A DNA stretch of 28,841 nt, from the IMG/VR virus record IMGVR_UViG_3300009149_000200, positions 1-28,841 of that record; one strand, given 5' to 3'. Every line of letters begins with the position of its first letter. The stretch's first letter is position 1. The position numbers and the translations under genes were made by a program. The notes below the pieces were generated by a model. It did not search any database, was not told the DNA's origin, and saw only the letters and a list, made by a program, of their open reading frames with translations. Below are positions 1,190-23,538 of the stretch, piece by piece. Source of the DNA: a virus.

Positions 1190-2017
1190 ATGAAAAAATT
1201 TAGTTTATTAAAAGAATATATTAAACCAAAGTATGATTCTAAGGATCAATTAAAAAATGAAATTTATAATATCATTGATAATGAGATAGCATTAAAAGTA
1301 ACGAATGAAAAATATTTGAACTCTGATATAGATATTCATGGAAAAGAAGAATTAGTCGAAAAGATTAAATCTTTGATTGATGATGTTAGAATTAAAGAAA
1401 GAACGTTAACATTAGAGATAGTTAAAGCAAATGTTCATAGAAACTTTGATATGAAATGGTTAAATGACCAAATTAATACTCTTAAAAATTTAAAAACTAC
1501 ATCAAATATTGAATTGAATGAAGAAATTCAAGATATGGATGATATTCAACCTATTCAACCAGTACAACCTATTCAACCAGTACAAGTTGCTGAGTTACCA
1601 CAAGGAACGGAAGAAGTACAAGACACAGATGTTTTAGATACTAATAAAGATAGACGTAATTCGGATGTGACACATTATATTGCCAAGAAAATGAATGAAG
1701 TTAAAAAAATTGGTGATTTTAAATTTGAATATGAGCCATCTGATGGTATTTTGAGGTTTGTTAATGATGATGAAGGAATTATTGTTAAAGCAACCCCATT
1801 TTATACAGAAGATGATGATTTACCAATTGAAGTGTTTGATGAAAATCAAGTTGATACTCATATTTTTATAGAAAATAGAAATTTTGATGTCAATGAAATA
1901 GCTTTTGATAAATATCAAGAAATAATGGAAAAATTCTTAATTGAGGAATTTGAAGATTGGGTAGAAAGAGTTAATAAATTTGACGAAAAAGGTGGTGATA
2001 GTCCACAAGTACAATAA
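1190..2017 (+). CDS. Acidic helical protein with a QPIQPV repeat
   Basis: A 275-residue protein of unknown family. Residues 1-12 (MKKFSLLKEYIK) resemble the capsid-targeting-like N-termini seen elsewhere in the window. Residues 20-105 are charged and probably helical. A low-complexity linker at about residues 120-132 repeats Q-P-I-Q-P-V. The C-terminal part (about 160-275) is strongly acidic. This architecture of helices, proline linker and acidic domain would suit a head-core or scaffold-associated protein, but that is inference. It shares a unit with the gene at 894 and ends at a hairpin shared with the opposing heat-shock gene. Confidence 0.75.
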   Translation: MKKFSLLKEYIKPKYDSKDQLKNEIYNIIDNEIALKVTNEKYLNSDIDIHGKEELVEKIKSLIDDVRIKERTLTLEIVKANVHRNFDMKWLNDQINTLKNLKTTSNIELNEEIQDMDDIQPIQPVQPIQPVQVAELPQGTEEVQDTDVLDTNKDRRNSDVTHYIAKKMNEVKKIGDFKFEYEPSDGILRFVNDDEGIIVKATPFYTEDDDLPIEVFDENQVDTHIFIENRNFDVNEIAFDKYQEIMEKFLIEEFEDWVERVNKFDEKGGDSPQVQ

Positions 2018-6050: not shown

Positions 6051-6526
6051 TGCAAAATATAAAATCAAAAATCTTTAATTGGGATAATCTACAAAATCAG
6101 ATTATTATATGGAGAAGTCAAAACAAAAAAATTGTATTTACAAATGGGTGTTTTGATATTCTCCATTTAGGTCATATAGAATATCTTTCTAAGTCTAAGG
6201 ACTTGGGAGATATTCTTATTGTTGGCTTAAATTCTGATTCTTCTCCATATTGGAAAGAAAAAGGTGAAAATAGACCAATTAACAATGAAAAATCAAGAAG
6301 TGTTCTTATTGCTTCATTAATGTTTGTAGATGCTGTTGTTTTATTTGATGATGAAATTCCATCTGATATTATTGATTTTATAAAACCTGATATATTAGTT
6401 AAAGGTAAGGATTATAAACCAGAGGACGTAGTTGGGTATGATAGTGTTGTTTCTAATGGGGGTGAAGTTTTAACGGTAGAATTAACAGAAGGTTTTTCTA
6501 CTACAAATATTTTAAGTAAATTATAG
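6050..6526 (+). CDS. HldE/RfaE2-like nucleotidyltransferase
   Basis: A 158-residue cytidylyltransferase-superfamily enzyme, closest in pattern to the adenylyltransferase domain of HldE (RfaE2), which makes ADP-heptose from heptose-1-phosphate and ATP. The nucleotide-binding start is FTNGCFDILHLGHIEYL with the H-x-G-H motif at 39-42. VGLNSDSS (58-65) and RPINNEKSR (75-83) follow in the usual order. The end VKGKDYKPEDVVG and the GFSTTNI signature (148-154) complete the domain. The length equals a free-standing RfaE2. No heptose kinase is in the window, so the substrate may be a host sugar phosphate or another glycerol/heptose-type phosphate. Its stop overlaps the end of the opposing gene by 6 nt. 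Confidence 0.88.
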   Translation: MQNIKSKIFNWDNLQNQIIIWRSQNKKIVFTNGCFDILHLGHIEYLSKSKDLGDILIVGLNSDSSPYWKEKGENRPINNEKSRSVLIASLMFVDAVVLFDDEIPSDIIDFIKPDILVKGKDYKPEDVVGYDSVVSNGGEVLTVELTEGFSTTNILSKL

Positions 6527-6976
6527 ATTATATTTTCTCATTTGTTTTGCATCTTCTAAGCTGATACCTCTTTCTTTATATCCATCTTTAATATACCAAT
6601 AATTAGTATGATAATATGAATTATTATCTTCATCATCATAATATATCATTTCATCTCTTAATAATTTATCAAGAGAAATACTATATGTTAAATCATAAAC
6701 ATTAGGATCACTTTCCACACCTTTTTTTATAATATCATTTGAATTGTTTGTGTTATATACCATTTGATTCCAATCACTTGTTATTTCACCACTATCTTCC
6801 CATAAATCAACCCAAGAGATAAAATCACTATTTTTATCTTTAACTAACACAAAAAACATTTCACCATTATCTTCATATTTTACAACAATTGGATCATAAT
6901 TAGAAACAATTCTATCTATTTCTTCTTCTAATTCTTTATCATATTCATATGTTTCAAACTTTTTAATATATTTCAT
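6521..6976 (-). CDS. Internal-protein-like small protein, last of the minus cassette
   Basis: A 151-residue very acidic protein. It starts MKYIKKFETYE, the capsid-targeting-like peptide, and ends MRKYNL, the shared C-terminal tag. The middle is rich in D, E, Y and N (DEMIYYDDEDNNSYYHTN) and includes a strand-rich section (PIVVKYEDNGEMFFVLVKDK). Function unknown. It overlaps the upstream gene by 4 nt (ATGA type). If the start peptide works as in T4, the protein would be packed in the prohead and cut near residue 8. Confidence 0.75.
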   Translation of the reverse strand: MKYIKKFETYEYDKELEEEIDRIVSNYDPIVVKYEDNGEMFFVLVKDKNSDFISWVDLWEDSGEITSDWNQMVYNTNNSNDIIKKGVESDPNVYDLTYSISLDKLLRDEMIYYDDEDNNSYYHTNYWYIKDGYKERGISLEDAKQMRKYNL

Positions 6977-7275
6977 AATATAACTTTAATTCTTTTTTTT
7001 CCGTTTTCAAAATCTTTATTCCAAACTATTCTAGTTTTATCATCTTTAAAATCATCAAATTCAACCCAAATTTGTTTGTTTTTATTATTATATCCAGTTA
7101 GGTTTTCTTTAATATAACCTTTACCTTTTATTGTTACTTTTTTACTTTCTGATTTTATTATTTTAAAATCTGTTACTAATAATTTAGGATTATTTTTTAT
7201 ATCTTTCACTATAATTTTGTAGTCAACATTTACAAATTTTCCTGTGTTCTCGAATATGTTAAATTTTGTTATCAT
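6973..7275 (-). CDS. Internal-protein-like basic small protein
   Basis: A 100-residue lysine-rich protein starting MITKFNIFENTGK, a targeting-like peptide with E at residue 9. The body is probably a small beta barrel (YKIIVKDIKN, VTIKGKGYI, IWVEFDDFKDDKTRIVW). It lacks the K-Y-N-L tag and ends KRIKVIL. Its high lysine content and single-domain size resemble packaged T4 internal proteins. It overlaps the next gene by 4 nt and lies 3 nt after the previous one. Confidence 0.72.
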   Translation of the reverse strand: MITKFNIFENTGKFVNVDYKIIVKDIKNNPKLLVTDFKIIKSESKKVTIKGKGYIKENLTGYNNKNKQIWVEFDDFKDDKTRIVWNKDFENGKKRIKVIL

Positions 7276-7278
7276 ATA

Positions 7279-7587
7279 TTATATTTTGTTATATCTTTTT
7301 TTTAGTAAGTATTCTTTAACTTCTTTAGGTGTTAAAAAATCGGATATTTCCCATCTATTTACTTTTATTGAGTTATTATACCCAGGTATTATTTCATCAA
7401 ATTCTATTTCAAATGGATATTCATCATCATTATCTTCATCATAATTTGCATCAATTGATATTATTTTTCCAATTTTATCATTAATAAATTCTTCAACAAA
7501 CCTATCAAAACTACCAGCATAAATACGTACATAATCACCTATTTTTGGTATAACTGCGGACTCAAATATTTTAAATTTTGTTATCAT
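7279..7587 (-). CDS. Internal-protein-like protein with GDYV barrel
   Basis: A 102-residue protein starting MITKFKIFESA and ending KKRYNKI, a variant of the C-terminal tag. The core starts IGDYVRIYAGSFD and contains IGKIISID and a strand PFEIEFDEI. This is the order seen in the other GDYV-type members (7584, 13046, 16873) and resembles an SH3/KOW-like barrel. Function unknown. It is coupled to the upstream gene by a 4-nt overlap. Confidence 0.75.
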   Translation of the reverse strand: MITKFKIFESAVIPKIGDYVRIYAGSFDRFVEEFINDKIGKIISIDANYDEDNDDEYPFEIEFDEIIPGYNNSIKVNRWEISDFLTPKEVKEYLLKKRYNKI

Positions 7588-7913
7588 ATGTTATATTTAT
7601 TTGAGTTTAATAATATTTCCAATTCATTTTTATTTGGTGTCCAATACTTTAATTTTTCTATTTTGAATTCTCCTTTATTTTGATATAAATAGTTTTCTTG
7701 TATATCTTCTGGGACATTTTCAAATTTTATAGTATAAATGTTTGATGTACCACCGTGTTCATATTGTATATCTATTATTTGTCCAATGTTAGAAGAAATA
7801 AAATTTAACCACATTTTAGGTTTAAATTGATATTCATTTTTATTGATTATTACATAATCATTTACTTTTGGTAAAATACTAATTTCTTCAAATAGTTTAA
7901 ATTTTGTTATCAT
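7584..7913 (-). CDS. Internal-protein-like protein with GDYV-type barrel
   Basis: A 109-residue paralogue of the 7279 gene. It starts MITKFKLFEEISILPK, has the core VNDYVIINKNEYQ, then SNIGQIIDIQYEHGG and YTIKFENVP, and ends LLNSNKYNI. Shared N-terminus, barrel motif and C-terminal tag make a common origin with 7279, 13046 and 16873 likely, although the parts in between differ greatly. It overlaps both neighbours by 4 nt. Function unknown. Confidence 0.75.
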   Translation of the reverse strand: MITKFKLFEEISILPKVNDYVIINKNEYQFKPKMWLNFISSNIGQIIDIQYEHGGTSNIYTIKFENVPEDIQENYLYQNKGEFKIEKLKYWTPNKNELEILLNSNKYNI

Positions 7914-8473
7914 AAATTATATTTATTCATATTTTTTAAAGCTTGAATGCTATTTTTAATCTCATATTTATATTTTTTATATAAATCAGGATGAACTTCA
8001 AAACTATTCTCAATTGCTTCTTCATCGTTCCAATCAATATCTTCATCATATCCATCAATAAACAATTCATAGAAATTTCTAAAATTATTATTCATTAGAT
8101 CCTCTTGAAATGTGTATAATAATTCATTTATACCTTCAGTGTATGATATTGATGCTTCATTTCGTTTCTTCTCTAATGTATCAATTAAATCATCAACTTC
8201 GTATATGTCTTTTATGTATTGTTGTAATTTTTTTAAATTTTTAATCTTTGATATTTCAACAATGGTTTTTTTGTTATAATCAAGGTCAGTTTTACGTATG
8301 TATGTTTCTATATTATCTAAGGGTGCATCATTTTGTCCCCATTCATAAATATAATCATTTGTCTCTGTAGATAAATTTGGTGATTTTCCAATATCTGTTA
8401 GTGTACCAAAAGAGTCTGTGTCTAAATATTTTGAATAATTTTCGTTGATTTGATTAAACTTTTTGATTTTCAT
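7910..8473 (-). CDS. Internal-protein-like protein, first of the minus cassette
   Basis: A 187-residue acidic, mainly helical protein. It starts MKIKKFNQINENY, which holds I-N-E, a perfect match to the T4 gp21 cleavage consensus ([LI]-[AN]-E). It ends ALKNMNKYNL. The middle has long charged helices (LKKLQQYIKDIYEVDDLIDTLEKKRNE) and no barrel motif, so the end tags are shared by unrelated bodies. It is the first gene of the five-gene unit; a TATATA element lies 6 nt before the ATG, so the message may be nearly leaderless. Confidence 0.75.
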   Translation of the reverse strand: MKIKKFNQINENYSKYLDTDSFGTLTDIGKSPNLSTETNDYIYEWGQNDAPLDNIETYIRKTDLDYNKKTIVEISKIKNLKKLQQYIKDIYEVDDLIDTLEKKRNEASISYTEGINELLYTFQEDLMNNNFRNFYELFIDGYDEDIDWNDEEAIENSFEVHPDLYKKYKYEIKNSIQALKNMNKYNL

Positions 8474-8479
8474 ATGTTG

Positions 8480-8489
8480 TATATATAAA
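8480..8489 (-). promoter_or_regulatory. Promoter-like element of the minus cassette
   Basis: The minus strand reads TTTATATATA here, 6 nt before the ATG at 8473. It matches the late element in sequence but is closer to the start codon than most, which would give a very short leader. Confidence 0.35.
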
Positions 8490-8500
8490 TATTTAAAAAT

Positions 8501-8531
8501 AAAAAACCCTACTTTTAAAAATAGCAGGGTT
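8501..8531 (-). terminator. Terminator facing the minus strand
   Basis: aaccct (8505-8510) pairs with agggtt (8526-8531), extended with a mismatch by two more pairs. The minus strand continues into six T (8506-8501). It lies upstream of the minus cassette, so it would stop transcripts arriving from the minus gene at 9507-10073 after they cross gp15 in antisense. Confidence 0.55.
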
Positions 8532-8634
8532 CTGTTTTATTAACAACTATGAATTGATTAATTAGGATTTTATTCCTATATTATTATACATTAAAAACAT
8601 AAAAAAGTTTAATTTATTTTATACAACATTTTTT

Positions 8635-8645
8635 TTATATATAAT
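8635..8645 (+). promoter_or_regulatory. Late-promoter-like element TTATATATAAT
   Basis: A full match to the recurrent element, 21 nt before the gp15 start codon. Confidence 0.6.
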
Positions 8646-8666
8646 AGTAAATAAAAAAGTTTTTCA

Positions 8667-9506
8667 ATGAATATAGGCAATGAATATAATTACGATGATA
8701 ATTTTGTTAGAATGACGACTGTTGCATTAACAAGTGTTTTAACTAAAAGAATTAGATGGATCAATCGTTGGGCAGATGGTAAGAAGATTAGAGTTTTAAT
8801 CCCTTTTTATACATCGTTTGCTGGACAAGAAAGATTTATGTTAGATGCGTTTGTTGATGATGTTTCAAGTACAAGAGTAGAAATGAATACTGATCAAAAA
8901 CAAAGAGGTGTTGTTACATTTAAAGGTGGATCACAACGAAATGATGAATTTGCAAACCCAAATGAATATTTAGCTAAAAGTAGTAAAATTAATGGAGAAT
9001 TTAAAAGTATTGTAAGTAGAACTAAAGCTATACCTGTGACCCTTAATTATGAAGTAATGATAAAATTGGACAATGAATGGGAAGCTGATACGTGTTATAA
9101 TAAAATATTAGATGTTTTATATACATATTATATTTTTAATATAAATTATTTTGGTATTAAAATTGACGCATTTTTTGGATTACCTTCTGAATCTGGAATT
9201 GAAATACCAAGAGAGATAAACTTAGGATCAGATGATACTATATCAGTTAAGTTTAATTTAGAAGTTAATACTTATTATCCAGTATTTAAAGTTAAAGAAG
9301 AAGATTTTGAAATTTGTGATAATGATGATTCTATTGATTGGGATTTCTTAGGTGTTAAAAAACCAGACGGTTCTGAAATTGGTAGTGCAGATGGAGCATT
9401 AAAAAGAGTTCATTGGTATCATAATTTATTGGAAAATAGAACTAAAGAAGAAATAATAACTGAGAATGAAAATAATAGGGACGATGAAATTGATAATATG
9501 GAGTAA
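8667..9506 (+). CDS. 15: Tail-sheath stabiliser / tail terminator (T4 gp15-like)
   Basis: A 279-residue protein that would form the hexameric ring closing the top of the contractile tail and joining it to the head. T4 gp15 is 272 residues. From memory of that protein the same landmarks occur in order: an N-terminal YNYDDNFVRMTTVAL followed by a basic LTKRIRWI; GKKIRVLIPFYTSFAGQERFM; a long IPVTLNYEVMIKLDNEWEADTCYNKIL; and the C-terminal strand ISVKFNLEVNTYYPVF. The last 50 residues are acidic and probably flexible. A late-promoter-like element precedes it. Its end abuts the opposing gene at 9507. The weak point is that the match was made by eye. Confidence 0.78.
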   Translation: MNIGNEYNYDDNFVRMTTVALTSVLTKRIRWINRWADGKKIRVLIPFYTSFAGQERFMLDAFVDDVSSTRVEMNTDQKQRGVVTFKGGSQRNDEFANPNEYLAKSSKINGEFKSIVSRTKAIPVTLNYEVMIKLDNEWEADTCYNKILDVLYTYYIFNINYFGIKIDAFFGLPSESGIEIPREINLGSDDTISVKFNLEVNTYYPVFKVKEEDFEICDNDDSIDWDFLGVKKPDGSEIGSADGALKRVHWYHNLLENRTKEEIITENENNRDDEIDNME

Positions 9507-10073
9507 TTAATAAACTTTTGTGTCAAAAAAAACTTCAAAATGATCTTTAGAATACCATCCTGTTTTTGGTCTAACTTCTTCTAATCTTTTACCACCTGTG
9601 CTTTTATCATCACCACCAAACATTGATGTACTGATAGATTCAACTCTAAGTCTTAAAGATTCTTTTTTTAATACTTTTTTCCAATCTCTTACAGATGTTT
9701 TAACCCAAGTGCCATTTTTATCAATAATTAAATTGTGTTTGACATCTGTTAAGTGATGCCATATCAAATCTTCATTTTTAACATTGAATTTATGTATTAT
9801 TTTTTTCAATTTTTCTTTTCTCACTTTTTCATATTTAACCCAATCGAAATTTTCAGATGTACTATCTTCTTTAACTTTTTTAGGTATAGCAACTTGATCT
9901 GGTTGTGTTTTATCTATTGATCCAATTAAAAATAATTCTTGAAATCTTATTGGCATAGCATAAAACCCTTTTGTAGAAGGGGGTGCATGAAAACTATCTT
10001 TATCATGACCTTGTTGTTTGGTTAAATGTAATCTACCATACCTAATAAATGTATTATCAATATCTTTTTTCAT
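9507..10073 (-). CDS. Hypothetical basic protein with an FHAPPSTKGFYAMP motif
   Basis: A 188-residue basic protein of unknown family. The N-terminal part has conserved-looking aromatic motifs: FIRYGRLHL (9-17), then a SFHAPPSTKGFYAMP segment (27-41) and FQELFLIGSI. These look like a ligand-binding or enzymatic site; the R-x-G...S-F-H...K-G-F-Y-A layout recalls ADP-ribosyltransferase folds only loosely, and I do not claim it. The middle is K-rich and helical (VRKEKLKKIIHKFN) and the C-terminal part has several W, R and K. It is alone on its strand. An upstream TATCTTTG box suggests host-type, possibly early transcription, unlike its late neighbours. Confidence 0.7.
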   Translation of the reverse strand: MKKDIDNTFIRYGRLHLTKQQGHDKDSFHAPPSTKGFYAMPIRFQELFLIGSIDKTQPDQVAIPKKVKEDSTSENFDWVKYEKVRKEKLKKIIHKFNVKNEDLIWHHLTDVKHNLIIDKNGTWVKTSVRDWKKVLKKESLRLRVESISTSMFGGDDKSTGGKRLEEVRPKTGWYSKDHFEVFFDTKVY

Positions 10074-10079
10074 TATTTA

Positions 10080-10087
10080 CAAAGATA
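10080..10087 (-). promoter_or_regulatory. Bacteroidota-type -7 box TATCTTTG
   Basis: The minus strand reads TATCTTTG, a match to the Bacteroidota TAnnTTTG element, ending 6 nt before the ATG at 10073. The expected start site would fall at or just before the start codon. No clear -33 TTTG partner is seen. Confidence 0.35.
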
Positions 10088-10118
10088 ATAATATTTTTGA
10101 AAAAAACCAGTTTTTTTA

Positions 10119-10131
10119 TTTAATATATAAT
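10119..10131 (+). promoter_or_regulatory. Late-promoter-like element TTTAATATATAAT
   Basis: A full match to the recurrent element, 37 nt before the ATG at 10169; this is the longest spacing in the set. Confidence 0.5.
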
Positions 10132-10168
10132 TCTGAATTAAATTAAAAAATAAAAAAACCTGCAAGAT

Positions 10169-10555
10169 ATGAAAATAATTAATGATTTTAAAAAATTTTT
10201 AAATGAGAATTTAGAAACATCTGATATTAATGTTATTATAGATGTATCATCTACAATGAGACCTTCAGATATTGATAGATTACCACAATTAATAGATTGT
10301 GATGAATGTCAAAAAATAAATATCATTTTAGTTAATACTGAAGTGGTAAAAGTTGATGTTATTTCTGATTTTTTAGAATTAGGTGATGTGTTTAAAACTG
10401 CACCATTAAATGGTGGTGGCACAGATTTACAACCAGGTATTAAATATATACTTGATAATGGATTAGAAAATAATAAAACATATATTGTTTCTGATTTTTA
10501 TTGTGAACCATTAGATTATTCTGGTGTATCAGAATATGAAGAAATAAAAATATAA
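10169..10555 (+). CDS. VWA-like domain protein with targeting-like N-terminus
   Basis: A 128-residue protein. After an N-terminus MKIINDFKKFLNENL (which holds L-N-E, a T4 gp21-type cleavage site) comes a compact von Willebrand A-like domain. Its metal-site residues are visible: D-x-S-x-T in VIIDVSSTMRP (about 26-30), the T-D of NGGGTDLQPGIKYIL (about 85), and S-D in YIVSDFYCEP (about 108). The spacing resembles small VWA-like domains such as DUF2201-type ones. VWA domains bind protein partners through a divalent metal. The partner here is unknown. It starts a plus-strand unit of three genes with targeting-like N-termini. Confidence 0.78.
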   Translation: MKIINDFKKFLNENLETSDINVIIDVSSTMRPSDIDRLPQLIDCDECQKINIILVNTEVVKVDVISDFLELGDVFKTAPLNGGGTDLQPGIKYILDNGLENNKTYIVSDFYCEPLDYSGVSEYEEIKI

Positions 10556-10578
10556 AAACAAAAAAAATAATTAGAAAT

Positions 10579-10794
10579 ATGAAAAATTTAAAAAAATTTG
10601 AAGATTTTAATTCAGAGTCAGCATTTAGAAGTTTATCATTTCCAACAGAAAAAATTAATAATTTTCTTAATAAATGGGAACAAAATAATATTGATATTAA
10701 AAATACATTTGAAAAAGGCCGTGTTACATATGTTGAATTTTATACAACAGATGATTTTAAAAAAGCGGCAATTTTAGCACAAGAAATTGTTTAA
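10579..10794 (+). CDS. Small internal-protein-like protein
   Basis: A 71-residue protein starting MKNLKKFEDFNSE, one of the clearest targeting-like peptides (E at residue 8). The remaining part looks like a small alpha/beta unit (KINNFLNKWEQ, RVTYVEFYTTDDFKKAAILAQEIV). Function unknown. It lies 23 nt after the VWA gene, and the following gene starts 28 nt later behind an identical gaaatatgaaaaattt start context. Confidence 0.72.
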   Translation: MKNLKKFEDFNSESAFRSLSFPTEKINNFLNKWEQNNIDIKNTFEKGRVTYVEFYTTDDFKKAAILAQEIV

Positions 10795-10822
10795 AAAAAA
10801 CAAAAAAAATAAAAATAGAAAT

Positions 10823-12109
10823 ATGAAAAATTTAAAGTATGATTTGTTTAATTTTAAAAAAGACCTTCCAATAGAAGACTACGAATTAAACACAATAGTA
10901 GAGAGTTACATTAGTAATTATGATAAATTTTCTGAAAAAGAACTTGTTTCTTCATTGAAAGAAACTTTAACACCATTTGCATGGGATTCTAAGGTTAAAA
11001 TGTTAGTTGAATCTTTGGAAGATGAAATTAAAGGAGAACCGTTAAATTACAATTTGAAAGATTTGTATAAAAAAGTAGAAAGAAAAAATCACGGACAAAT
11101 GTATCGTCCAGCATTAAGTTCTATTCTTAATATTATTAACATGACCGATAATGATACAAAAATGACATCTATTATCAATGAATTAGTTATTCACGATTGG
11201 ATTCCAGAAGTAAAATTATTTTTAGATGGGTATATGAATAATCCTATTCAAAGACAAAATTTAGTTAATTCAGGTAAAGCATCTAAGGTTTTTACATTAG
11301 TTGAAAAAACTGAAAATGGTAATTTAGTATTTATGAAAGATCGTTGGTTTTTAATTGATGAGCATGAAGTTAAACAAACGCTTTTAGAAGATCATATTAA
11401 AGATGTGGATAAACTAAGAGAGTTTAGAATGTTAGAAAAAGTTATGAGTATTGGTGATGTTCAGGAAGATTCAATATCTTTTAGACTTGATGAAAACTTA
11501 ATCCTAAGTCTTTCAACAAAAGATGATAAAGATGTATTTTTAAATGAGGAAAAATTAGATAAAGAAACTACATTAGAAAATTTATTTAATTCAAAAATTA
11601 TTCCTTGGTTGAAAAAAGATTATTATGCATTATCAAGTGTAGCTGCACAGAATATTGATAAATTCGTTGATTTAGATATAGCATTAAAAATTGAAAATAG
11701 ATTGCACCCACATTTAGAAACTTTTGTTATTAATTATAATGATAAGATGTATGTTTATAATAAAGATGCAAGAACTGGTACTGCTTTTTATGAGTATAAT
11801 TCAGCTAATGATTTAATTAATGATGTTCAACGAGAATTGGATTATGATTTATCTAAATTTTTAGAAAATAAATTATCAAAAGAGATTAAACATCTTAGAA
11901 CATTAGAAGATAAGGAAATGGAAATAAAAGAAAGTATTAAGAATATCGATGAAGCTCTAGCATTATTAAAAGAAAATGAACAATTAGTAAATGAAGATGA
12001 GAATTTAACTAAAACATTTAAAGAATTGTTAGTATCTAAACATGAACTTTATGAAAATTTAAGAGCAGTTAAAGAAGATAAAATTAAAGCAAAAAGGATG
12101 GTTATTTAA
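10823..12109 (+). CDS. Large helical protein, possible virion or head-core component
   Basis: A 428-residue protein of unknown family. The start is placed at ATG 10823, giving MKNLKYDLFNFKKD. The frame is open 12 codons further up to 10787, but that would overlap the previous gene and lose the start context shared with 10579. Residues 1-140 are helical, a middle part (about 145-330) has strands (KTENGNLVFMKDRWFLID, ISFRLDENLILSLSTKDD), and the C-terminus (about 345-428) is a long charged coiled coil. No catalytic motif is recognised. With the targeting-like start it could be a large internal head protein, in the way T4 Alt is, but no ADP-ribosyltransferase signature is seen. A strong terminator follows. 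Confidence 0.78.
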   Translation: MKNLKYDLFNFKKDLPIEDYELNTIVESYISNYDKFSEKELVSSLKETLTPFAWDSKVKMLVESLEDEIKGEPLNYNLKDLYKKVERKNHGQMYRPALSSILNIINMTDNDTKMTSIINELVIHDWIPEVKLFLDGYMNNPIQRQNLVNSGKASKVFTLVEKTENGNLVFMKDRWFLIDEHEVKQTLLEDHIKDVDKLREFRMLEKVMSIGDVQEDSISFRLDENLILSLSTKDDKDVFLNEEKLDKETTLENLFNSKIIPWLKKDYYALSSVAAQNIDKFVDLDIALKIENRLHPHLETFVINYNDKMYVYNKDARTGTAFYEYNSANDLINDVQRELDYDLSKFLENKLSKEIKHLRTLEDKEMEIKESIKNIDEALALLKENEQLVNEDENLTKTFKELLVSKHELYENLRAVKEDKIKAKRMVI

Positions 12110-12127
12110 TAATTAATGAATTTTATT

Positions 12128-12163
12128 AAAAAAGGTTCTACAAAAAATGTAGAACCTTTTTTT
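12128..12163 (+). terminator. Terminator after the 10169-12109 unit
   Basis: aaaaaaggttctaca (12128-12142) pairs perfectly with the segment starting tgtagaacc (12148 on), leaving a 5-nt loop and seven T. It is the strongest terminator in the window. Confidence 0.88.
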
Positions 12164-12270
12164 GTGTTATTTAACAAAATATATATTATGTTTATTATTT
12201 TTATAAACTTTTCATTATTAGAATCATATAAATATTGTTATTTTTATTTAATCTTATTAAAAATAACGAA

Positions 12271-12290
12271 TTAAAGGCAATTAAAGGCAA
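12271..12290 (+). repeat. Two tandem copies of TTAAAGGCAA
   Basis: The 10-mer ttaaaggcaa occurs twice in direct succession, about 70 nt before the gp55 gene. The rest of the 12164-12357 gap is A/T-rich without other clear structure. It may be a binding site for a regulator of the gp55 gene, or just a chance duplication. Confidence 0.4.
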
Positions 12291-12357
12291 TCAATATACA
12301 TTAACTGAAATAAGGTTTCTACTTATAATACAACAACCAAAAAAAATAATGTGATAT

Positions 12358-12732
12358 ATGGCTAGATACATAGACGATACTGATTTTTTTTACGAAATAA
12401 AGTTATCAAAAGGCAAAGGAAAATTAACCAAAAATGCTGAAAATATGATAATAAAAATAGGTGAAGAAATGATAAAAAAATTCGAGAGAAAATATAAAAC
12501 AATAGATGATAAATATGATTGTATGCAACAAGGATTATTGATGATGTTTCAAAATTGGCAAGGATTTAATGAAAAAAAATATAGTTCAGCTTTTCCTTAT
12601 TTTTCTGAAATATGTAAAAGAGGAATTGCTGGAGGTTTAAATGTTATTTATCAGAAAAAAAATAACCAAGATTCACCAAAAATGATAAGTCTTAGTCATT
12701 CAAATGATGGTAAAGGTTTACACAATATTTAA
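12358..12732 (+). CDS. 55: Late-transcription sigma factor (T4 gp55-like)
   Basis: A 124-residue minimal sigma factor that would bring host RNA polymerase to late promoters. In T4 it works with the sliding clamp and gp33. The start FFYEIKLSKGKGKLTKNAENMI and the middle DCMQQGLLMMFQNWQGFNEKKYSSAFPYFSEICKRGIAGGLNVIYQKK follow the sigma region-2-like core of gp55, including the aromatic FPYFSEICKRG stretch. The end KMISLSHSNDG also matches. T4 gp55 is 185 residues, so this copy is short and may lack part of the clamp-binding C-terminus. Its own promoter is not of the late type, as expected for a gene needed before late transcription. Confidence 0.88.
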   Translation: MARYIDDTDFFYEIKLSKGKGKLTKNAENMIIKIGEEMIKKFERKYKTIDDKYDCMQQGLLMMFQNWQGFNEKKYSSAFPYFSEICKRGIAGGLNVIYQKKNNQDSPKMISLSHSNDGKGLHNI

Positions 12733-12748
12733 TTTAACTTATTAATTT

Positions 12749-12759
12749 TTATATATAAA
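12749..12759 (+). promoter_or_regulatory. Late-promoter-like element TTATATATAAA
   Basis: A full match to the recurrent element, 18 nt before the ATG at 12778. Confidence 0.6.
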
Positions 12760-12777
12760 GAAAAAGGACAAATAATT

Positions 12778-13044
12778 ATGGCTTTATATGATTGGGTAAG
12801 GGACGAAGGGTTTATTACTTCAAATCCAATACCGTCAAGAACTACATATGGAAATGATGAATCATTTATTATGTTAGTTAGAGATATACAATTTCAAGAT
12901 GTCAAAAGTGGGGGTTATACTAGATTTCCAACTTTGTATGATGTTGCATTAGCAAACAACGGTAAGAACTATATTGCCGTGACAGATAATACTAGACTTG
13001 TACAAGATCCTCCAAATATAAATAAATTAAAAGGTGGCTATTGA
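12778..13044 (+). CDS. Small probable virion protein
   Basis: An 88-residue protein of unknown family starting MALYDWVRDEGFI. It has balanced charge with many T, G, Y and N (SGGYTRFPTLYDVALANNGKNYIAV), suggesting a beta-rich structural protein. A late-promoter-like element directly precedes it, and it leads a unit that continues to gp4, so a virion role is likely. No signal peptide or membrane segment. Confidence 0.72.
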   Translation: MALYDWVRDEGFITSNPIPSRTTYGNDESFIMLVRDIQFQDVKSGGYTRFPTLYDVALANNGKNYIAVTDNTRLVQDPPNINKLKGGY

Positions 13045-13045
13045 T

Positions 13046-13393
13046 ATGAAACACGTAAAAAAATATGAATTTTTTACTTTTAGAGATATGAGAAGTGGGG
13101 ATTATATTTTAAGAAAAAATGTTGATATGCAACACTATAAATATATTTTTGATAATAGTGATTATGAAAAAATTATAGATTATTTATCAAATACAATAGG
13201 TGAAATATGTACTATTTATACTGACAATAAGATAAAAGTAAAATATAAACCAACACAAGAATATTTGAAATTTTTTAAATATGATAAAAATGTTGGGTAT
13301 TATATAACATTAAAAGTTAAAGATGTATTAGATTTTTCAAGTAATAAGGAAGATTTAGAAATGATTATTCAATCAAATAAATATAATTTATAA
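13046..13393 (+). CDS. Internal-protein-like protein with GDYI barrel
   Basis: A 115-residue protein. The start is placed at ATG 13046 (MKHVKKYEFFTF) because it yields the targeting-like peptide; the frame is open to a GTG at 13034, which overlaps the previous gene. The core starts SGDYILRKN and has NTIGEICTIYTDNKIKVKY, the same order as in the minus-cassette paralogues. It ends MIIQSNKYNL. Function unknown. The next gene starts 2 nt after its stop. Confidence 0.78.
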   Translation: MKHVKKYEFFTFRDMRSGDYILRKNVDMQHYKYIFDNSDYEKIIDYLSNTIGEICTIYTDNKIKVKYKPTQEYLKFFKYDKNVGYYITLKVKDVLDFSSNKEDLEMIIQSNKYNL

Positions 13394-13395
13394 TT

Positions 13396-13755
13396 ATGAA
13401 ACATTTAAAAACATATGAAAGTTTAGATACAAATAATTTAAAAGTACAAGAAGTTATTTTAAAATATGGTAAAGAAGATGCTGCTAAATTTTTAGATTTT
13501 TTATTAAAAGGAAAATATATAATATTTAAACAAAGTATGTTTACTAAAACTGGTAATTATGAATATGCTGATAATGGTGGTGAAGTGACACGAATTTTTT
13601 ATATAGATAATAGTGGTTGTATGATTGCTAGATTAGATGAAGATAATACATATTTGGATTTGATGATAAATCGTTCAGTAGTATATTATGAAAAAGGTGA
13701 TTTAGATATTGATGCGGCAGAAATGATATTAACCACAGATAAATATAATTTATAA
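13396..13755 (+). CDS. Internal-protein-like protein with K-Y-N-L tail
   Basis: A 119-residue protein starting MKHLKTYESLD (E at residue 8) and ending MILTTDKYNL. The middle has a helical KEDAAKFLDFLLKGK, then strands KYIIFKQSMFTK, GGEVTRIFYIDNSG and MIARLDEDNTYLDLM, a diverged version of the barrel in the GDYV-type members. Function unknown. Its last base overlaps the first base of gene 4, so packaging-type and head-completion genes are translated together. Confidence 0.77.
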   Translation: MKHLKTYESLDTNNLKVQEVILKYGKEDAAKFLDFLLKGKYIIFKQSMFTKTGNYEYADNGGEVTRIFYIDNSGCMIARLDEDNTYLDLMINRSVVYYEKGDLDIDAAEMILTTDKYNL

Positions 13756-14255
13756 TGTATAGAGCAAAATCAAGAAATAGGAAATATAAACAGGGAGTAT
13801 ATGTAATTCAAAATCAAGAAAAATATATTGGGAAGATTCCAGTAATATATAGAAGTTCTTGGGAATATGCGTTTTGTAAATTTTGTGATATTAATAAAAA
13901 TGTTATAAAATGGTCATCAGAAGGATTTTATATCCCATATCACATAAGTAATGATATTGGTCAAATAGAAATACATCGTTATTATCCAGATTTTTATATT
14001 GAAACAATTAATCCAAATGATAAAGAAAGACACAATAGAATAGTAATAGAGATAAAACCAAAGAAGGAAACATCACAGCCTATACCCCCAAAGAAACAAA
14101 CATTAAAGATGTTAGAAAATTATGAATATTCTTTAAGAATGTTTAAAAAGAATTTACATAAATGGGTACATGCGAAGGAGTGGTGTGATAAAAGACATAT
14201 TGCTTTTAAAATTATAACTGAAGAATGGTTAAAAGATAAAGGGTTAATTCCTTAA
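13755..14255 (+). CDS. 4: Head-completion nuclease (T4 gp4-like)
   Basis: A 166-residue protein that in T4 finishes the DNA-filled head before tail attachment. T4 gp4 is about 150 residues. The start KYKQGVYVIQNQEKYIGK and IPVIYRSSWEYAFCKFCD (29-45) are typical. A PD-(D/E)xK nuclease core follows: H-R-Y-Y-P-D-F (74-80, D79) and V-I-E-I-K-P (97-102, E99 and K101). The C-terminal LHKWVHAKEWCDKRHIAFKIITEEWL fits the last helix and strand. It lies in the same unit as the preceding small proteins. Confidence 0.9.
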   Translation: MYRAKSRNRKYKQGVYVIQNQEKYIGKIPVIYRSSWEYAFCKFCDINKNVIKWSSEGFYIPYHISNDIGQIEIHRYYPDFYIETINPNDKERHNRIVIEIKPKKETSQPIPPKKQTLKMLENYEYSLRMFKKNLHKWVHAKEWCDKRHIAFKIITEEWLKDKGLIP

Positions 14256-14279
14256 TAAATTATAATAATATATACTATT

Positions 14280-15044
14280 ATGAAATTTAAATTCACTGAA
14301 GAAGTTAAGGCACTTTTTACTCAATATCAAAAAAACATAAAAGTGATAAAGGATGAATCTACTTTAGAAATGTTTACATATATTTTAAGGAAACCAAATA
14401 ACCAAGTTAGAATTACTAATATTAATAAAGTGACAACAGGTAAATTTTATATTATTAGATATAATTTTAATGGTAATAAAATATGGTGTCCAATATTAAC
14501 AATACCTCCAGTACCAAATAAGAATGAATTAGGTGTTTTAGAACGACAATTAAAGATACGAAATATTAAAAAAATATTATATGCTATAAATTTTGATTAT
14601 TTACCACTAAGATATAAGGCATTGCTTATAGATCAAATTATTATAAGTAATCCAGATAGATATAATAAAAATGAAGATAAAATAGCAAATGGTGAACTTG
14701 TTTCAAAAGAATATGGATTTAGAATTCCTTGGATTTATACATTTTTAAAAAAATATAAAAAAAATTATGCAATAACAGCATATGATATATCTAAAATCGA
14801 TAGAGTATATGATATTTCATCAACAATATTACAACGATTTGTTTTTATTGATACATATTATATTAATAAAAGAATGATGTATGAAACACTAACTAAATTA
14901 CAAAACGAAAAAACTAGAACGGAATTTTCTAAGAAAATAAAAAAGTATGAGGAAATATTAAAAATGTATGAAACAGATGTAGAACATTTTTATGAATCAT
15001 TAAGAGGTTTTGAGAAAAATTTAAAGTTAATGGAGAATATCTAA
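14280..15044 (+). CDS. Conserved-looking protein between gp4 and portal
   Basis: A 254-residue basic protein of unknown family. Residues 20-80 look strand-rich (NQVRITNINKVTTGKFYIIRYNF, WCPILTIPPVP). Residues 85-200 are helical with many aromatics (YLPLRYKALLIDQIIISNP), and the C-terminus (about 200-254) is a charged coiled coil. In T4 the gene after 4 is the baseplate-wedge gene 53, but no resemblance to gp53 is seen. It probably is a virion or assembly protein by position. Confidence 0.72.
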   Translation: MKFKFTEEVKALFTQYQKNIKVIKDESTLEMFTYILRKPNNQVRITNINKVTTGKFYIIRYNFNGNKIWCPILTIPPVPNKNELGVLERQLKIRNIKKILYAINFDYLPLRYKALLIDQIIISNPDRYNKNEDKIANGELVSKEYGFRIPWIYTFLKKYKKNYAITAYDISKIDRVYDISSTILQRFVFIDTYYINKRMMYETLTKLQNEKTRTEFSKKIKKYEEILKMYETDVEHFYESLRGFEKNLKLMENI

Positions 15045-15058
15045 ACGGACTTTTCTAT

Positions 15059-15071
15059 TTTAATATATAAT
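15059..15071 (+). promoter_or_regulatory. Late-promoter-like element TTTAATATATAAT
   Basis: A full match to the recurrent element, identical over 13 nt to the copy at 10119 and 17 nt before the portal start codon. Confidence 0.6.
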
Positions 15072-15088
15072 AAAAATTAATTGAATTA

Positions 15089-16846
15089 ATGGCAACATAT
15101 AATAGACATAATCAACCAAACTCAATGTACGAATTTGGAAAAGGTAGTACAGGAAGAAGTTTTAGTAATAAATTACTTAGAAAGATAAGTAATTTTGGGA
15201 TGGATGACCAAGAAATGGTTGTTAAGAATAGTCAAGCAATTGGTGCATTTCAAGACACGAGCAATTTACTTTATGAACCTGGTACTAATATGTATGACCT
15301 TTTTAGTAAAAAAATTATATCAAAAATATTAGAAAAGAAATCAATAGCGTATTTAGATAGAAGATATTTAGATAAAAGAAAAATTTTACATCAATATGCT
15401 ATTAAGGAAGAAATAAAAGATTATGTGACAAGAATTGCAGAGGAATGTGTAAATTATGATGATGATAATTATTTCTGTGGTGTTGCAGATATTCCTGATA
15501 GTTATGATCAGGCAATGAGATCAAAATTTCAAGATAATTTTAGAAGAATTTACAATTCATTTAATTTTAATGATGGATTAACAGCTTGGAATTATATGAA
15601 AACTTTTTTGATTGATGGATTTTTAGCTTTTGAAATAGTTTATGATGATGATCAAAAAAATATTATAGATCTTAGTTTATTGGATCCATTAACATTGATT
15701 GTTGCAGCAGAGCCAGGGACAGGAACAGTTGTTTGGATTCAAAACCCAGATATTCCACAATTAAGGAGAGTTTTATTGGATGCTAATATTATTTATATAT
15801 CATATTCTAATAATTTGGAGTATGATGAAACAAGTTATGTTGAAGGTTTAATAAAACCTTATAATCAATTAAAGTTGTTAGAATTTACAAAGTTAATGTA
15901 TAATTTAAACCAAGCTTCAATTTATAAAAAATTTGTTATACCTGTAAATGGACTAACTAGGCAACAAGCAGAGCAACAAATACAACAACTTATGAGTGAA
16001 TATCATGAAGATATTGAGTGGGATGATAGAACAGGAGTGCCTTATATTAATGGATCTACAAAAATACCACATTCAAAAGATTATTGGTTTCCAACATCTG
16101 AATTAGGAACACCAGATATGACAATTGAACAACCACAACAAGCAGAATTAAATGAGGATGTTACATTACAGTGGTTTTATAAAAGTTTTAAACGTGCATC
16201 AAAAATGCCATTTTCGAGATTAGATGAAGAACAAGGCGGTGGTAGTTTTTATGATGATACATCAGCTATTACAATGGATGAAATAAGATTTAAAAATTAT
16301 ATTAATCGTTTAAGAACATTATTTAAGGAAATTTTAGTTAAACCATTAAAAATCCAGATGATTTTAGATTTTCCAGAATTGCAAGCAGATAAAATTTTTG
16401 AAAGTTATATTAAAGTTGAATTTAATTCAAATGATTTATTTGAAGAGTGGAAGTATTTAAATAATTTAGCTAAAAGATCAGAAATAGCATCTACTTTATC
16501 CAGCAATTTACAAGATAGTGAAGGTCAGCCGTATTTTTCAATTGAATGGATTGTTCGTAATATTATGAAACTTACTGATAAGAACATAGAAGAAAATAAT
16601 AAATATAAAATGTCAGGTGGTGTTGCTGGAGAAGGTTCTGGTGGTGGTAGTGGCGGCTTCGGTGGAGGCGGTGGTGACGACTTCGGTGGAGGTGGTGACG
16701 ACTTCGGTGGAGGAGGTGGTGATGATTTCGGTGGAGGTGGAGAACCTGGTATTTCTGGAATGGAAGATATGGGTGGTAGTCAAGCTCAAGATATGGGCGG
16801 TGGTCAAGGACAAGCACAAAGCGGTGATGGGCAATCACAATTTTAA
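15089..16846 (+). CDS. 20: Portal protein (T4 gp20-like)
   Basis: A 585-residue protein that would form the dodecameric ring through which DNA enters and leaves the head and on which the prohead starts. T4 gp20 is 524 residues. Typical portal features: RRYLDKRKILHQYAIKEEIKDYVTRIAEECV near the start, a strand section (DGFLAFEIVYDDDQKNIIDLSLLDPLTLIV), IIYISYSN, a wing with YVEGLIKPYNQLKLLEF, and a long helical stem and crown (SAITMDEIRFKNYINRLRTLF). From about residue 509 a G/D-rich tail follows, with repeats of the G-G-G-D-D-F type, that T4 lacks. It follows its own late-promoter-like element and leads the head cluster. Confidence 0.92.
   Translation: MATYNRHNQPNSMYEFGKGSTGRSFSNKLLRKISNFGMDDQEMVVKNSQAIGAFQDTSNLLYEPGTNMYDLFSKKIISKILEKKSIAYLDRRYLDKRKILHQYAIKEEIKDYVTRIAEECVNYDDDNYFCGVADIPDSYDQAMRSKFQDNFRRIYNSFNFNDGLTAWNYMKTFLIDGFLAFEIVYDDDQKNIIDLSLLDPLTLIVAAEPGTGTVVWIQNPDIPQLRRVLLDANIIYISYSNNLEYDETSYVEGLIKPYNQLKLLEFTKLMYNLNQASIYKKFVIPVNGLTRQQAEQQIQQLMSEYHEDIEWDDRTGVPYINGSTKIPHSKDYWFPTSELGTPDMTIEQPQQAELNEDVTLQWFYKSFKRASKMPFSRLDEEQGGGSFYDDTSAITMDEIRFKNYINRLRTLFKEILVKPLKIQMILDFPELQADKIFESYIKVEFNSNDLFEEWKYLNNLAKRSEIASTLSSNLQDSEGQPYFSIEWIVRNIMKLTDKNIEENNKYKMSGGVAGEGSGGGSGGFGGGGGDDFGGGGDDFGGGGGDDFGGGGEPGISGMEDMGGSQAQDMGGGQGQAQSGDGQSQF
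16614..16745 (+). repeat. G+C-rich glycine/aspartate repeat in the portal tail
   Basis: Imperfect tandem units of ggtggaggtggtgacgacttc type encode G-G-G-[GD]-D-D-F repeats. Local G+C is far above the rest of the window. Confidence 0.8.
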
Positions 16847-16872
16847 AAATAATTATATTTTAAATTTATATA

Positions 16873-17166
16873 ATGAAATATATTAAAACAATTGAATTAA
16901 GAGAACTATCTATTATTAAAGTAGGAGATTATGTTATTTGTGATTCGGAACTAGATATAAGTGGAAATAAAACAAAAAATCCATATTATATAATAACGTC
17001 TATCGTTAAAAATAAATATAGTAAGGATTCAACATATACTTTATTAAATTTGATTGATAATAAAAAAATTGTGTTTGGTAAATATTCAAAATATTTTAGA
17101 AAATGTACAAAAGATGAAAAAGATAAAATAAATTTATTAATTAGTATAAATAAATATAATTTATAG
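16873..17166 (+). CDS. Internal-protein-like protein with GDYV barrel
   Basis: A 97-residue basic protein starting MKYIKTIELRELSIIK, core VGDYVICDSELD with YYIITSIVKNKY and YTLLNLIDNKKIV, and ending LISINKYNL. It is a further member of the GDYV / K-Y-N-L family and the only one inside the head cluster. In T4 the genes between 20 and 21 encode the small prohead core proteins gp67 and gp68, so its position supports a core or internal role for the whole family. Confidence 0.77.
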   Translation: MKYIKTIELRELSIIKVGDYVICDSELDISGNKTKNPYYIITSIVKNKYSKDSTYTLLNLIDNKKIVFGKYSKYFRKCTKDEKDKINLLISINKYNL

Positions 17167-21153: not shown

Positions 21154-23538
21154 ATGAAACCAGTCCTTATTGTAGAACATTGTATGGACGGACTAAAACC
21201 ATTAAACGAATCAACCAAAAAAAAAGGTGATTATATTTTAGGTGGGACATTCACAGAATTTAATGTCAAAAATAGAAACGACAGAGTATATACTGCTGAA
21301 AAGTTTATCCCCCATTTAAATGAATTATTAGAACGTAAAAAAACCCTTGGTGTTGTTTATGGTGAATTTGACCATCCAGATGTTTTTGACACATCACTAT
21401 CAAGAGTTTCACACACAATCCAAAACGCTCAATATGTTAAAGAAAGTAACATAGTAACAGGCGAAATCAGATTGCTTAATACCCATTGGGGTAAAGAGGC
21501 GAAAGCACTTGTTGATGATGGTTGTCCTATTTTTGTATCAAGTAGAGCCGCAGGTATCACAGAATCTAATGGTACAGTAACTGTAAAAAAATTATTTACG
21601 TATGATGCCGTTGCTGATCCAGGCTTTAGTTCAGCAAGAATGGAAGTTAAATCTTTAAACGAAAGTTTAGGATTTAATCAAAAATCTAACTTTAGGATAT
21701 ATGATATATCCGATGAGTCAAAAATTAACGAATTATTTGAAATGAATGACAATTTTGTAACAAAAGACCAAATGCTTGAGTATTCAAATTATCTAACAGA
21801 AGAAATCGAAAAATTCAAAGGTGCCATTAATGAATCCATTAAGGATAAAGGTAAATTTGAACCTAAAAAGTTAGATTCAATGCTAGAGTATTATGAAAAC
21901 TTACAAGTACAACAAACAAAAATTGGACAATATCTTGATTATTTAGCTGAAAAGCTACAATTTGTTGTTAATGAGAATGTTGAATTGAAAAAAACTGCAA
22001 CCGACTTAATCAAGCATAACGATTATCTTGCTGAAAATTTAGAAAAAGTAGGAAACTATACTGAATATATAGCTGAAAACTTAGATAAAAATATTGATTA
22101 TGGTAAATATATTGCAGAAACACTAGACAAAAATATCGATTTTTCTGAGTACATCGCAGAGCATGTTGATAAAAATATCAAATACTCTGAATATATAGCA
22201 GAGAATCTTGATAAAAACATTGATTATTCTGAGTACATCGCTGAAAACTTGGATAACTCAATTGATTATTCTAAATATTTAGCTGAAAACTTGGACAATT
22301 CTATTGTTTATTCAGAGTATGTTGCTGAAAATTTAGATAATAATATTGCATACTCAGAATATATAGCTGAAAATTTAGATAATAATATTGCATACTCAGA
22401 ATATATAGCAGAGCATGTTGATAATAATATTTCTTATTCAGAATATATTGCTGAGAATCTTGATGATTCAATGGCATATACTAATTATATCGCTGAAAGT
22501 TTAGATAAAACAATTGAAAGTGGAAAACTTTTAACTGAAAAACTAAAAGGTGATAAAGTTCTTGAAAACTTCGAATTTGTAAATGAAGAAGGTGAAATTG
22601 ACGTTACTCAATTTTATGATGAAGAACCTACCGCAGCCGCTGCTGCTCCTGCACCTGCTGGTGAAGAAGTAGTTGAACAACCTGTAGTAGATGGTGATGC
22701 CCCAGTTGAAGACTTACCAGTTGAAACTGAACTTCCAACAGAAGAAATACCAAGTGAAGAAGAATTACCAATTGAAGAACCTATTGATGGTGAAGAAGAA
22801 TTGTTAGGTGAAGAAGAAGTAGATGGTATGCCAAGCCCAGGTGAAGTTGTTGCAGTTGGAGATAAAACAGGTGAAGTTATGGCAACTAATGCTCAGACAG
22901 GAATTGTTGTTGTTAAATTAGATACAGTTGACCAAGAAGGAGTACAACAAGAAGTTGAAGTACATGAATCTAAAGTTACTAGATTAAGCAGCAAAGTTAC
23001 TATGATAGAAAAATCGTTAAAAGAAAATTTAAATACCCTTATTCTTGAAACCAAAAAAAGAAAGGCTTCAGAACAAGATCAACCTCATTTCTTGATGTTC
23101 TTAACAGAGAAAAGAAAAGCTGCATATTACGCACTTTCAAATGAAGATAAAACCAAGGTAAAACTTGCTTTAAATGAAAATATTGGTAAATATACTAGCG
23201 AAATGCAAGTCATTACAATAATGAACGAAGCATTATCTCCAAAAAGAAAATCATTTGATGAATTATTACTTGATGCAATGCCATCAGACCTTAAACCAAT
23301 TTGGGAAAAGTTAGACACAAATGTTCAATCACAAATGTTGTCAACTTCAAGGTTATTCCCTGCTCTTGATTCAGTACAAAAATTTGAGAGTTTCTGGTAC
23401 AGTAGAAATTTAGAAAGGTTAACAAAAGAAAAACCTTCGAAGCAGTTAATTACTGAAAACCGTATAGTTGATGGTTCAAAACTTAGTGAATCTCAATTAG
23501 ATCGTTTTAAAAATGTATTTGATAAATTGAATTCTTAA
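21154..23538 (+). CDS. 21-22: Prohead protease-scaffold fusion (T4 gp21 + gp22)
   Basis: A 794-residue protein joining two T4 functions. Residues 1-165 are the maturation protease: GGTFTEFNVKNRNDRVY, H74 in VYGEFDHPD, H87 in RVSHTIQN and the serine pair S129-S130 in IFVSSRAAG, matching the Ser-His-His type of herpesvirus/T4 prohead proteases. Residues 170-300 are helical. Residues 302-455 are eleven exact 14-residue repeats of the Y-S-E-Y-I-A-E-N-L-D type, a coiled coil. A P/E-rich linker follows (about 490-560), then a small barrel (GEVVAVGDKTGEVMATN, IVVVKLDTVDQ), and a helical end. T4 keeps these as two genes. The fusion would place one protease per scaffold chain, and the protein probably digests itself. 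The gene is followed by gp23. Confidence 0.9.
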   Translation: MKPVLIVEHCMDGLKPLNESTKKKGDYILGGTFTEFNVKNRNDRVYTAEKFIPHLNELLERKKTLGVVYGEFDHPDVFDTSLSRVSHTIQNAQYVKESNIVTGEIRLLNTHWGKEAKALVDDGCPIFVSSRAAGITESNGTVTVKKLFTYDAVADPGFSSARMEVKSLNESLGFNQKSNFRIYDISDESKINELFEMNDNFVTKDQMLEYSNYLTEEIEKFKGAINESIKDKGKFEPKKLDSMLEYYENLQVQQTKIGQYLDYLAEKLQFVVNENVELKKTATDLIKHNDYLAENLEKVGNYTEYIAENLDKNIDYGKYIAETLDKNIDFSEYIAEHVDKNIKYSEYIAENLDKNIDYSEYIAENLDNSIDYSKYLAENLDNSIVYSEYVAENLDNNIAYSEYIAENLDNNIAYSEYIAEHVDNNISYSEYIAENLDDSMAYTNYIAESLDKTIESGKLLTEKLKGDKVLENFEFVNEEGEIDVTQFYDEEPTAAAAAPAPAGEEVVEQPVVDGDAPVEDLPVETELPTEEIPSEEELPIEEPIDGEEELLGEEEVDGMPSPGEVVAVGDKTGEVMATNAQTGIVVVKLDTVDQEGVQQEVEVHESKVTRLSSKVTMIEKSLKENLNTLILETKKRKASEQDQPHFLMFLTEKRKAAYYALSNEDKTKVKLALNENIGKYTSEMQVITIMNEALSPKRKSFDELLLDAMPSDLKPIWEKLDTNVQSQMLSTSRLFPALDSVQKFESFWYSRNLERLTKEKPSKQLITENRIVDGSKLSESQLDRFKNVFDKLNS
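22057..22518 (+). repeat. Eleven 42-nt repeats in the scaffold part
   Basis: Eleven units of exactly 42 nt encode the pattern Y-[ST]-[EK]-Y-[IVL]-A-E-[NTHS]-[LV]-D-[KND]. All units keep A-E; nine have I-A-E. A related but 13-residue unit (NDYLAENLEKVGN) precedes and SGKLLTEKLK follows. This is a protein-coding repeat, not a CRISPR array. Confidence 0.95.

Follow-up and report, generated by a model that had tools for sequence, protein, structure and literature searches.

Tagged small proteins beside T4-type head genes

The DNA analyzed here, called the window throughout, is a viral fragment of 28,841 nucleotides (28.8 kb, GC 25%) from IMG/VR record IMGVR_UViG_3300009149_000200. Judged by its sequence, it is a piece of a T4-like phage that encodes homologues of gp20, gp21 and gp23 and has a 735-kb "huge phage" among its relatives. 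Many of its small proteins begin with a similar short peptide ending in glutamate (E), which we call the tag and which resembles the capsid-targeting sequence (CTS), MKTYQEFIAE, of the T4 internal proteins IPI-IPIII and Alt (PMC9026906, PMC3012670). A preliminary description of the region had listed about a dozen tagged products. Every N-terminus that it quoted is where it had been placed, and ten members, not twelve, are convincing within 6521-17166. The tagged genes of the window are listed below, with a slash after the E and lengths in amino acids (aa).

6521..6976, minus strand: tagged protein, 151 aa, MKYIKKFE/TYE..., C-terminal tail KYNL
6973..7275, minus strand: tagged protein, 100 aa, MITKFNIFE/NTGKFV..., without the C-terminal tail
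7279..7587, minus strand: tagged protein, 102 aa, MITKFKIFE/S..., SH3-like family, end RYNKI a degenerate tail
7584..7913, minus strand: tagged protein, 109 aa, MITKFKLFE/E...NKYNI, SH3-like barrel model
7910..8473, minus strand: tagged protein, 187 aa, MKIKKFNQINE/N..., C-terminal tail KYNL
10169..10555, plus strand: tagged small VWA-like protein, 128 aa, MKIINDFKKFLNE/N...
10579..10794, plus strand: tagged protein, 71 aa, MKNLKKFE/D...
13046..13393, plus strand: tagged protein, 115 aa, MKHVKKYE/FF..., SH3-like family, C-terminal tail KYNL
13396..13755, plus strand: tagged protein, 119 aa, MKHLKTYE/S..., C-terminal tail KYNL
16873..17166, plus strand: probable tagged protein, 97 aa, MKYIKTIELRE/L..., C-terminal tail KYNL, tag outside the regular expressions
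1190..2017, plus strand: borderline tag, 275 aa, MKKFSLLKE/Y...

The last of these had been proposed as a weak member. Its start fits L-x-E and its orthologues begin MKKFTTLNE/E and MKKFSNINE/S, and we keep it as borderline only. Another supposed weak member, 10823-12109 (MKNLKYDLFNF), was removed from the set: every relative has this gene with the same start, mostly without the E. Pfam and PHROG searches of the tagged proteins of the window gave nothing firm apart from a VWA-related match of 10169.

Three head genes define the T4-like character of the window.

15089..16846, plus strand: portal protein, gp20 type (phrog_213)
21154..23538, plus strand: gp21-type head protease fused to a gp22-like core region (phrog_207)
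23622..25451, plus strand: major capsid protein, gp23 type (phrog_138)

The gp22-like part of the protease gene product holds some ten copies of a repeat of the form YSEYIAE(N)LDKNID, whose YSEYIAE-type elements are I-x-E sites resembling YQEFIAE of T4. The capsid protein has a presumed gp21 site, HSLNE/NVAYS, near residue 43, and a T4-type clamp loader and exonuclease are also encoded. Relatives of the portal were found in 48 viral contigs at 46-89% identity. Among phage records its top match is the 735-kb uncultured phage LR756501 (61%), followed by other records of 460-640 kb, Prevotella Lak phages and phage PAU, which is recorded as a Sphingomonas phage and whose host belongs to Sphingobacterium. 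At 4850-5053, a 67-aa open reading frame (ORF) carries a second copy of core repeats from the protease-core gene, 66% identical over 44 aa, and has a CTS-like start of its own, MNYTSYIAE/N.

Enrichment of the N-terminal peptide

Genes were called with a simple longest-ORF script, so absolute gene counts are approximate. Nine related contigs (56-271 kb), the first 400 kb of LR756501 and most of PAU were read as relatives. The other genomes were a Lak phage (400 kb), most of Tenacibaculum phage PTm1, T4, Syn9 and RM378 (part); the crAss-like phage phi14:2 served as a control, as did some 260 kb of host DNA from Bacteroidota. A rule shaped on the data (M[KIR]...[ILVKTMNQ][FYN]E, with E at residue 7-11) was compared with 300 composition-preserving shuffles of residues 2-14 and with internal Met positions as a second null. 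In the window, 8 of 39 genes fit, against 0.6 expected from shuffles and none from internal Met. The excess was 3.5-13.6-fold in the relatives, the 735-kb phage and PAU, with no excess in phi14:2 or the host DNA. By the preliminary description, a peptide common in host proteins that are never packaged would have counted against its reading; the Bacteroidota sequence shows none beyond chance.

Because this rule had been fitted to the data, a second test was built from T4 alone, requiring a hydrophobic residue at 4, an aromatic at 7, a hydrophobic at 8 and E at 10, with a slack of one residue. It found 20 matches in LR756501 (first 400 kb; 0.83 expected), 10 in related contig G005 (0.37) and 4 in related contig G002 (0.36). 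T4 itself gave 4 against 0.29, including both MKTYQEFIAE proteins, and phi14:2 and the host DNA gave zero. No gene of the window matches the full T4 register; a short register, with E directly after the aromatic, occurs in 7 genes against 0.33 expected, and in 10169 (MKIINDFKKFLNE) the complete T4 spacing is present but displaced by three residues. With the rules combined, 9 of the 39 genes match (1.3 expected) and 16873 is a tenth, just outside the rule. The shared peptide is real, and it recurs in the nine related contigs, on which the preliminary description had not drawn. Matching genes make up 8-21% of the genes in the relatives, LR756501 and PAU, where 2-4% are expected (2.7-7 times expectation), amounting to 8-54 genes per contig against a chance expectation of 1-14. 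Smaller excesses were seen in Lak (20 vs 8.9) and T4 (14 vs 4.2). CTS-like starts are also present in T4 genes 61.1 (NC_000866 18966-19130, MKTFKEFIKE/D) and 61.4 (20112-20369, MTRKYVKWIAE/D).

Register and cleavage site compared with T4

In T4, targeting information lies mainly at CTS residues 4 and 7 and processing information at 8 and 10; D at residue 10 blocks processing and not targeting, and gp21 cuts after L/I-x-E (PMC9026906). The tags described here sit at the extreme N-terminus, with E at residue 7-13 and most often at 8-9. When E is at residue 8 (77 tags), residue 4 is hydrophobic in 92%, which the rule did not require, and residue 7 is aromatic in 96%; the aromatic figure for the E8 and E9 classes is partly by construction, since the rule demanded [FYN] before E. 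The residue four before E, which the rule left unconstrained, is hydrophobic in 64% of tags vs 35% of internal matches. In the ten tags with E at residue 10, hydrophobic residues occupy positions 4, 7 and 8 in 90, 80 and 100%, and the E11 class has the same spacing displaced by one residue, more loosely. Hydrophobic or aromatic residues three apart, at positions 4 and 7, are found in both the E8 and E10 classes.

The cleavage context described earlier, of [LI]-N-E type, holds in part: [LI]-x-E is present in about half of the window tags (5 of 9). The third residue before the bond (P3) is I, L, V or M in those 5 of 9, and in 74-82% of tags in related contigs G001 and G002, PAU and the 735-kb phage, reaching 82% in both G001 and the 735-kb phage. 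PAU has a uniform version, MKTLSKLYE/S; the end of its protease reads KKLYE/SIKSKILKR, and its tags read SKLYE/S; 28 PAU proteins are predicted cargoes. Judging from these residues, we regard cleavage as likely at tags with [LI]-x-E and as uncertain at the others.

Tag exchange, bodies and genomic distribution

The family of 6973-7275 provides the clearest single evidence for a T4-type signal. Its body is kept in 16 loci (53-68% identity), the window protein being 50-66% identical to the others, and the tags differ. Orthologues start MITKFNIFE/N, MIIKFELFE/N, MKNYEQFILE/E, MKNFKEFLE/G, MKYIKKFNE/G, MKNFSEFIIE/Q and MKTYNQFIE/AS, the last close to MKTYQEFIAE/AS of T4. These relatives were recovered by an alignment-based search; a single-protein search found none, and tblastn against phage records gave no match.

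Clustered by sequence, loosely tagged proteins from twelve genomes gave 237 clusters, of which 160 hold a single gene; some are chance matches. The earlier statement that the bodies are mostly unrelated agrees with these more than 200 clusters, with the correction that 7279, 7584 and 13046 belong to one SH3-like family of 18 members, a predicted barrel. AlphaFold models 7584..7913 as an SH3-like barrel, with a predicted local distance difference test score (pLDDT) of 82 and residues 1-11 below 50, and 6973..7275 as an all-beta fold with residues 1-9 below pLDDT 50. In both models the confident fold starts right after the disordered N-terminus. Fold searches found no close solved relative for either: the 7584 model gave weak SH3-like or chromobarrel matches (best E 0.06; viral library 0.011), and the 6973 model matched nothing.

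Tagged genes are accessory. Families present in all ten lineages comprise 91 genes, not one of them tagged, and the tag is enriched in narrow over broad families (p 5e-6). Tagged genes lie next to each other above chance in six of eight genomes. Domains among them include GNAT, RimK, methyltransferase, NUDIX, sigma-70 and ADP-ribosyltransferase, which would suit takeover effectors, and also AAA and metallopeptidase-VWA. Nine defense-gene models each matched one protein when 136 tagged proteins were scanned. The VWA-like product of 10169..10555 clusters with longer, untagged VWA proteins from related phages. Small tagged VWA-domain proteins also occur in related contig G007 (42920, 58396), grouping with longer VWA proteins that lack the tag in the same or related phages, and G002 has AAA and metallopeptidase-VWA genes in a row at 28202-31117, with tag-like starts on both.

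C-terminal tail and DP[YLF]GEExW motif

Six tagged proteins of the window share a C-terminal tail, K[YF]N[LIV], that the preliminary description had overlooked. Taken as [KR][YF]N[LIVM], the tail ends 84 proteins of 48 clusters, spread over eight genomes from the subclade of the window, and is not found in related contigs G004 and G005, LR756501, PAU or T4. It is carried together with a rule-fitting N-terminus in 67 of the 84, and the other 17 have mostly variant-like starts, such as MKYIKTIELRE or MFKKFKDYISNN. The association of tail and tag is strong in each larger genome (e.g., p 1e-11 in G001). A DNA or translation-coupling signal was considered for the KYNL tail and ruled out: codon use is that of the background, F/Y and L/I/V are exchanged, and a close same-strand gene follows 55% of tail genes vs 49% of others. 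Because the codons follow the background and the exchanges are conservative, the tail is kept as protein. It is a second signal of this subclade, and one might speculate that it docks to the core, to DNA or to a host partner.

A different motif, DP[YLF]GEExW, was counted 42 times across 33 proteins of LR756501 (first 400 kb, L117-L136) and 38 times in 29 proteins of G005 (L082-L088), and in none of the other genomes read. Its position varies, internal or 1-4 residues from the C-terminus, as do its codons, and several carriers also bear the N-terminal tag. Small ORFs in LR756501 (L117 ~11314, L119 ~8028, L124 ~5582 and ~5891) and in G005 (L087, near 8962) correspond to pieces of the portal, capsid or protease gene of the phage itself, and several of them end in the DPYGEExW motif.

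A probable T4-type packaging signal and its rivals

The best reading of the N-terminal peptide is T4-type head packaging, and we consider it probable that the tagged proteins are a greatly expanded set of internal proteins. This reading is based on the T4 register, the exchange of tags, the head genes, the folds that begin after the tag and the accessory spread. The peptide, its register, its occurrence on accessory proteins with unrelated bodies, its exchange between orthologues and the presence of gp20, gp21, gp22-like and gp23 genes are direct observations, and the likeness to the T4 CTS proposed earlier is borne out in register, orthologue exchange, gp21 with a gp22-like core, and accessory distribution. 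We infer the following sequence of core binding, packaging, cleavage and injection. The N-terminal CTS would bind the gp22-like scaffolding core during prohead assembly and so bring small, otherwise unrelated proteins inside. The gp21-type protease would then cut after Glu at [LI]-x-E sites, releasing the folded domain, which would remain with the DNA and, on the precedent of T4, enter the next cell alongside it. Such a cargo repertoire would change fast, with bodies turning over and the tag kept or exchanged. By analogy with IPI*, an anti-defense role is a guess.

Several observations weigh against this reading. Some matches are chance, with 1-14 expected per genome; the tagged lysozyme of G002 has orthologues without the tag; and some tail-bearing proteins lack the E. 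PTm1, Syn9 and RM378 encode gp21 and show little or no tag excess, so the presence of gp21 does not imply the tag. In G007, G008 and G011, only 33-41% of tags have I/L/V/M at P3 and KTFE/KKFE forms prevail, which makes canonical gp21 cleavage doubtful there. As [LI]-x-E is uneven among genomes and T4 itself separates targeting from processing, packaging may be general while cleavage is not. In the open-access literature we found no virion proteomics for PAU or the Tenacibaculum jumbo phages.

The peptide might instead be another localization or assembly signal, such as an amphipathic membrane or replication-site anchor, on proteins that work inside the infected cell without ever being packaged. 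An amphipathic, K-rich peptide with hydrophobics three apart could bind membrane, the protease site is not kept throughout, as seen from the E-less variants and the KTFE/KKFE forms, and the enzyme domains of some tagged proteins could act in the cell. We nevertheless consider such a signal unlikely, since the register coincides with the experimentally mapped targeting and processing positions of T4, the E is conserved and orthologues swap the peptide for near-T4 forms. Common descent, with a single paralogous family whose bodies diverged strongly, could account for the 18 SH3-like proteins (three in the window) and the frequent adjacency of tagged genes; it is very improbable given more than 200 body clusters (some of them chance matches), the many domains and the several tag forms on one conserved body. 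The least credible alternative is that AT-rich codons, favored near starts without a Shine-Dalgarno sequence, produce the pattern. The genome is indeed 25% GC and upstream regions are AT-rich with no evident Shine-Dalgarno, but residue-preserving shuffles of the N-terminus and internal Met positions fail to reproduce the pattern, and AT-rich phi14:2 shows none of it and Lak little.

Beyond head packaging as such, we tentatively suggest, while leaning slightly against it, a two-part code and a large injected proteome. The huge T4-like phages of this group might load dozens of effectors per virion by a T4-type N-terminal code, with a second motif, C-terminal K[YF]N[LIV] for one subclade or DP[YLF]GEExW for another, as a separate docking or sorting signal.

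Comparison with known systems and significance

Like the T4 internal proteins, the tagged proteins have an N-terminal peptide of about 8-13 residues with a hydrophobic pair three apart, a Glu cleavage-type site that is often [LI]-x-E, variable bodies, accessory genes and a gp21/gp22/gp23 head system. They differ in number (8-54 matching genes per contig, 1-14 expected, vs a handful in T4), in the shortened register, with E one residue after the aromatic, that dominates the window's subclade, and in the extra KYNL/KFNL tail; here packaging is a prediction from sequence. In phage P1, an N-terminal signal loads an anti-restriction protein of the DarB/Dar group into the head, although that signal falls in the first 30 residues of a protein of 250 kDa (PMC9024508). 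The ejection proteins of phiKZ and SPN3US are similar in that these are large phages with many internal proteins and a gp21-related protease cutting after Glu, whereas their propeptides are far longer than 10-20 residues, several exceeding 100, and share no short tag (PMC5694885). Our literature search, beyond which most subscription papers lay, found no paper that describes a tag set of this kind in huge phages.

In huge phages the majority of genes lack an assigned function. Should the tag be a packaging code, sequence alone would pick out about 6-40 proteins per contig beyond chance that are expected to enter the host with the DNA, a natural place to seek counters to host defenses. The small internal-protein set of T4 would then be one end of a much larger system, and the peptide would offer a short tag with which proteins of choice could be loaded into very large heads. 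If the C-terminal tail has a part in packaging or delivery, it would represent a signal of a new kind.

Other features of the window

A phage-encoded transfer-messenger RNA lies at 410-781 (Rfam RF00023, 52 bits). The gene at 2050-2478 was named by eye as an Hsp20-like small heat-shock gene, and the bacterial relatives detected share only 26-44% identity with it and belong to several phyla. Two large paralogous ORFs, 17703-19265 and 19328-20965, occupy the interval between portal and protease and look, by eye only, like insertions of homing-endonuclease type.

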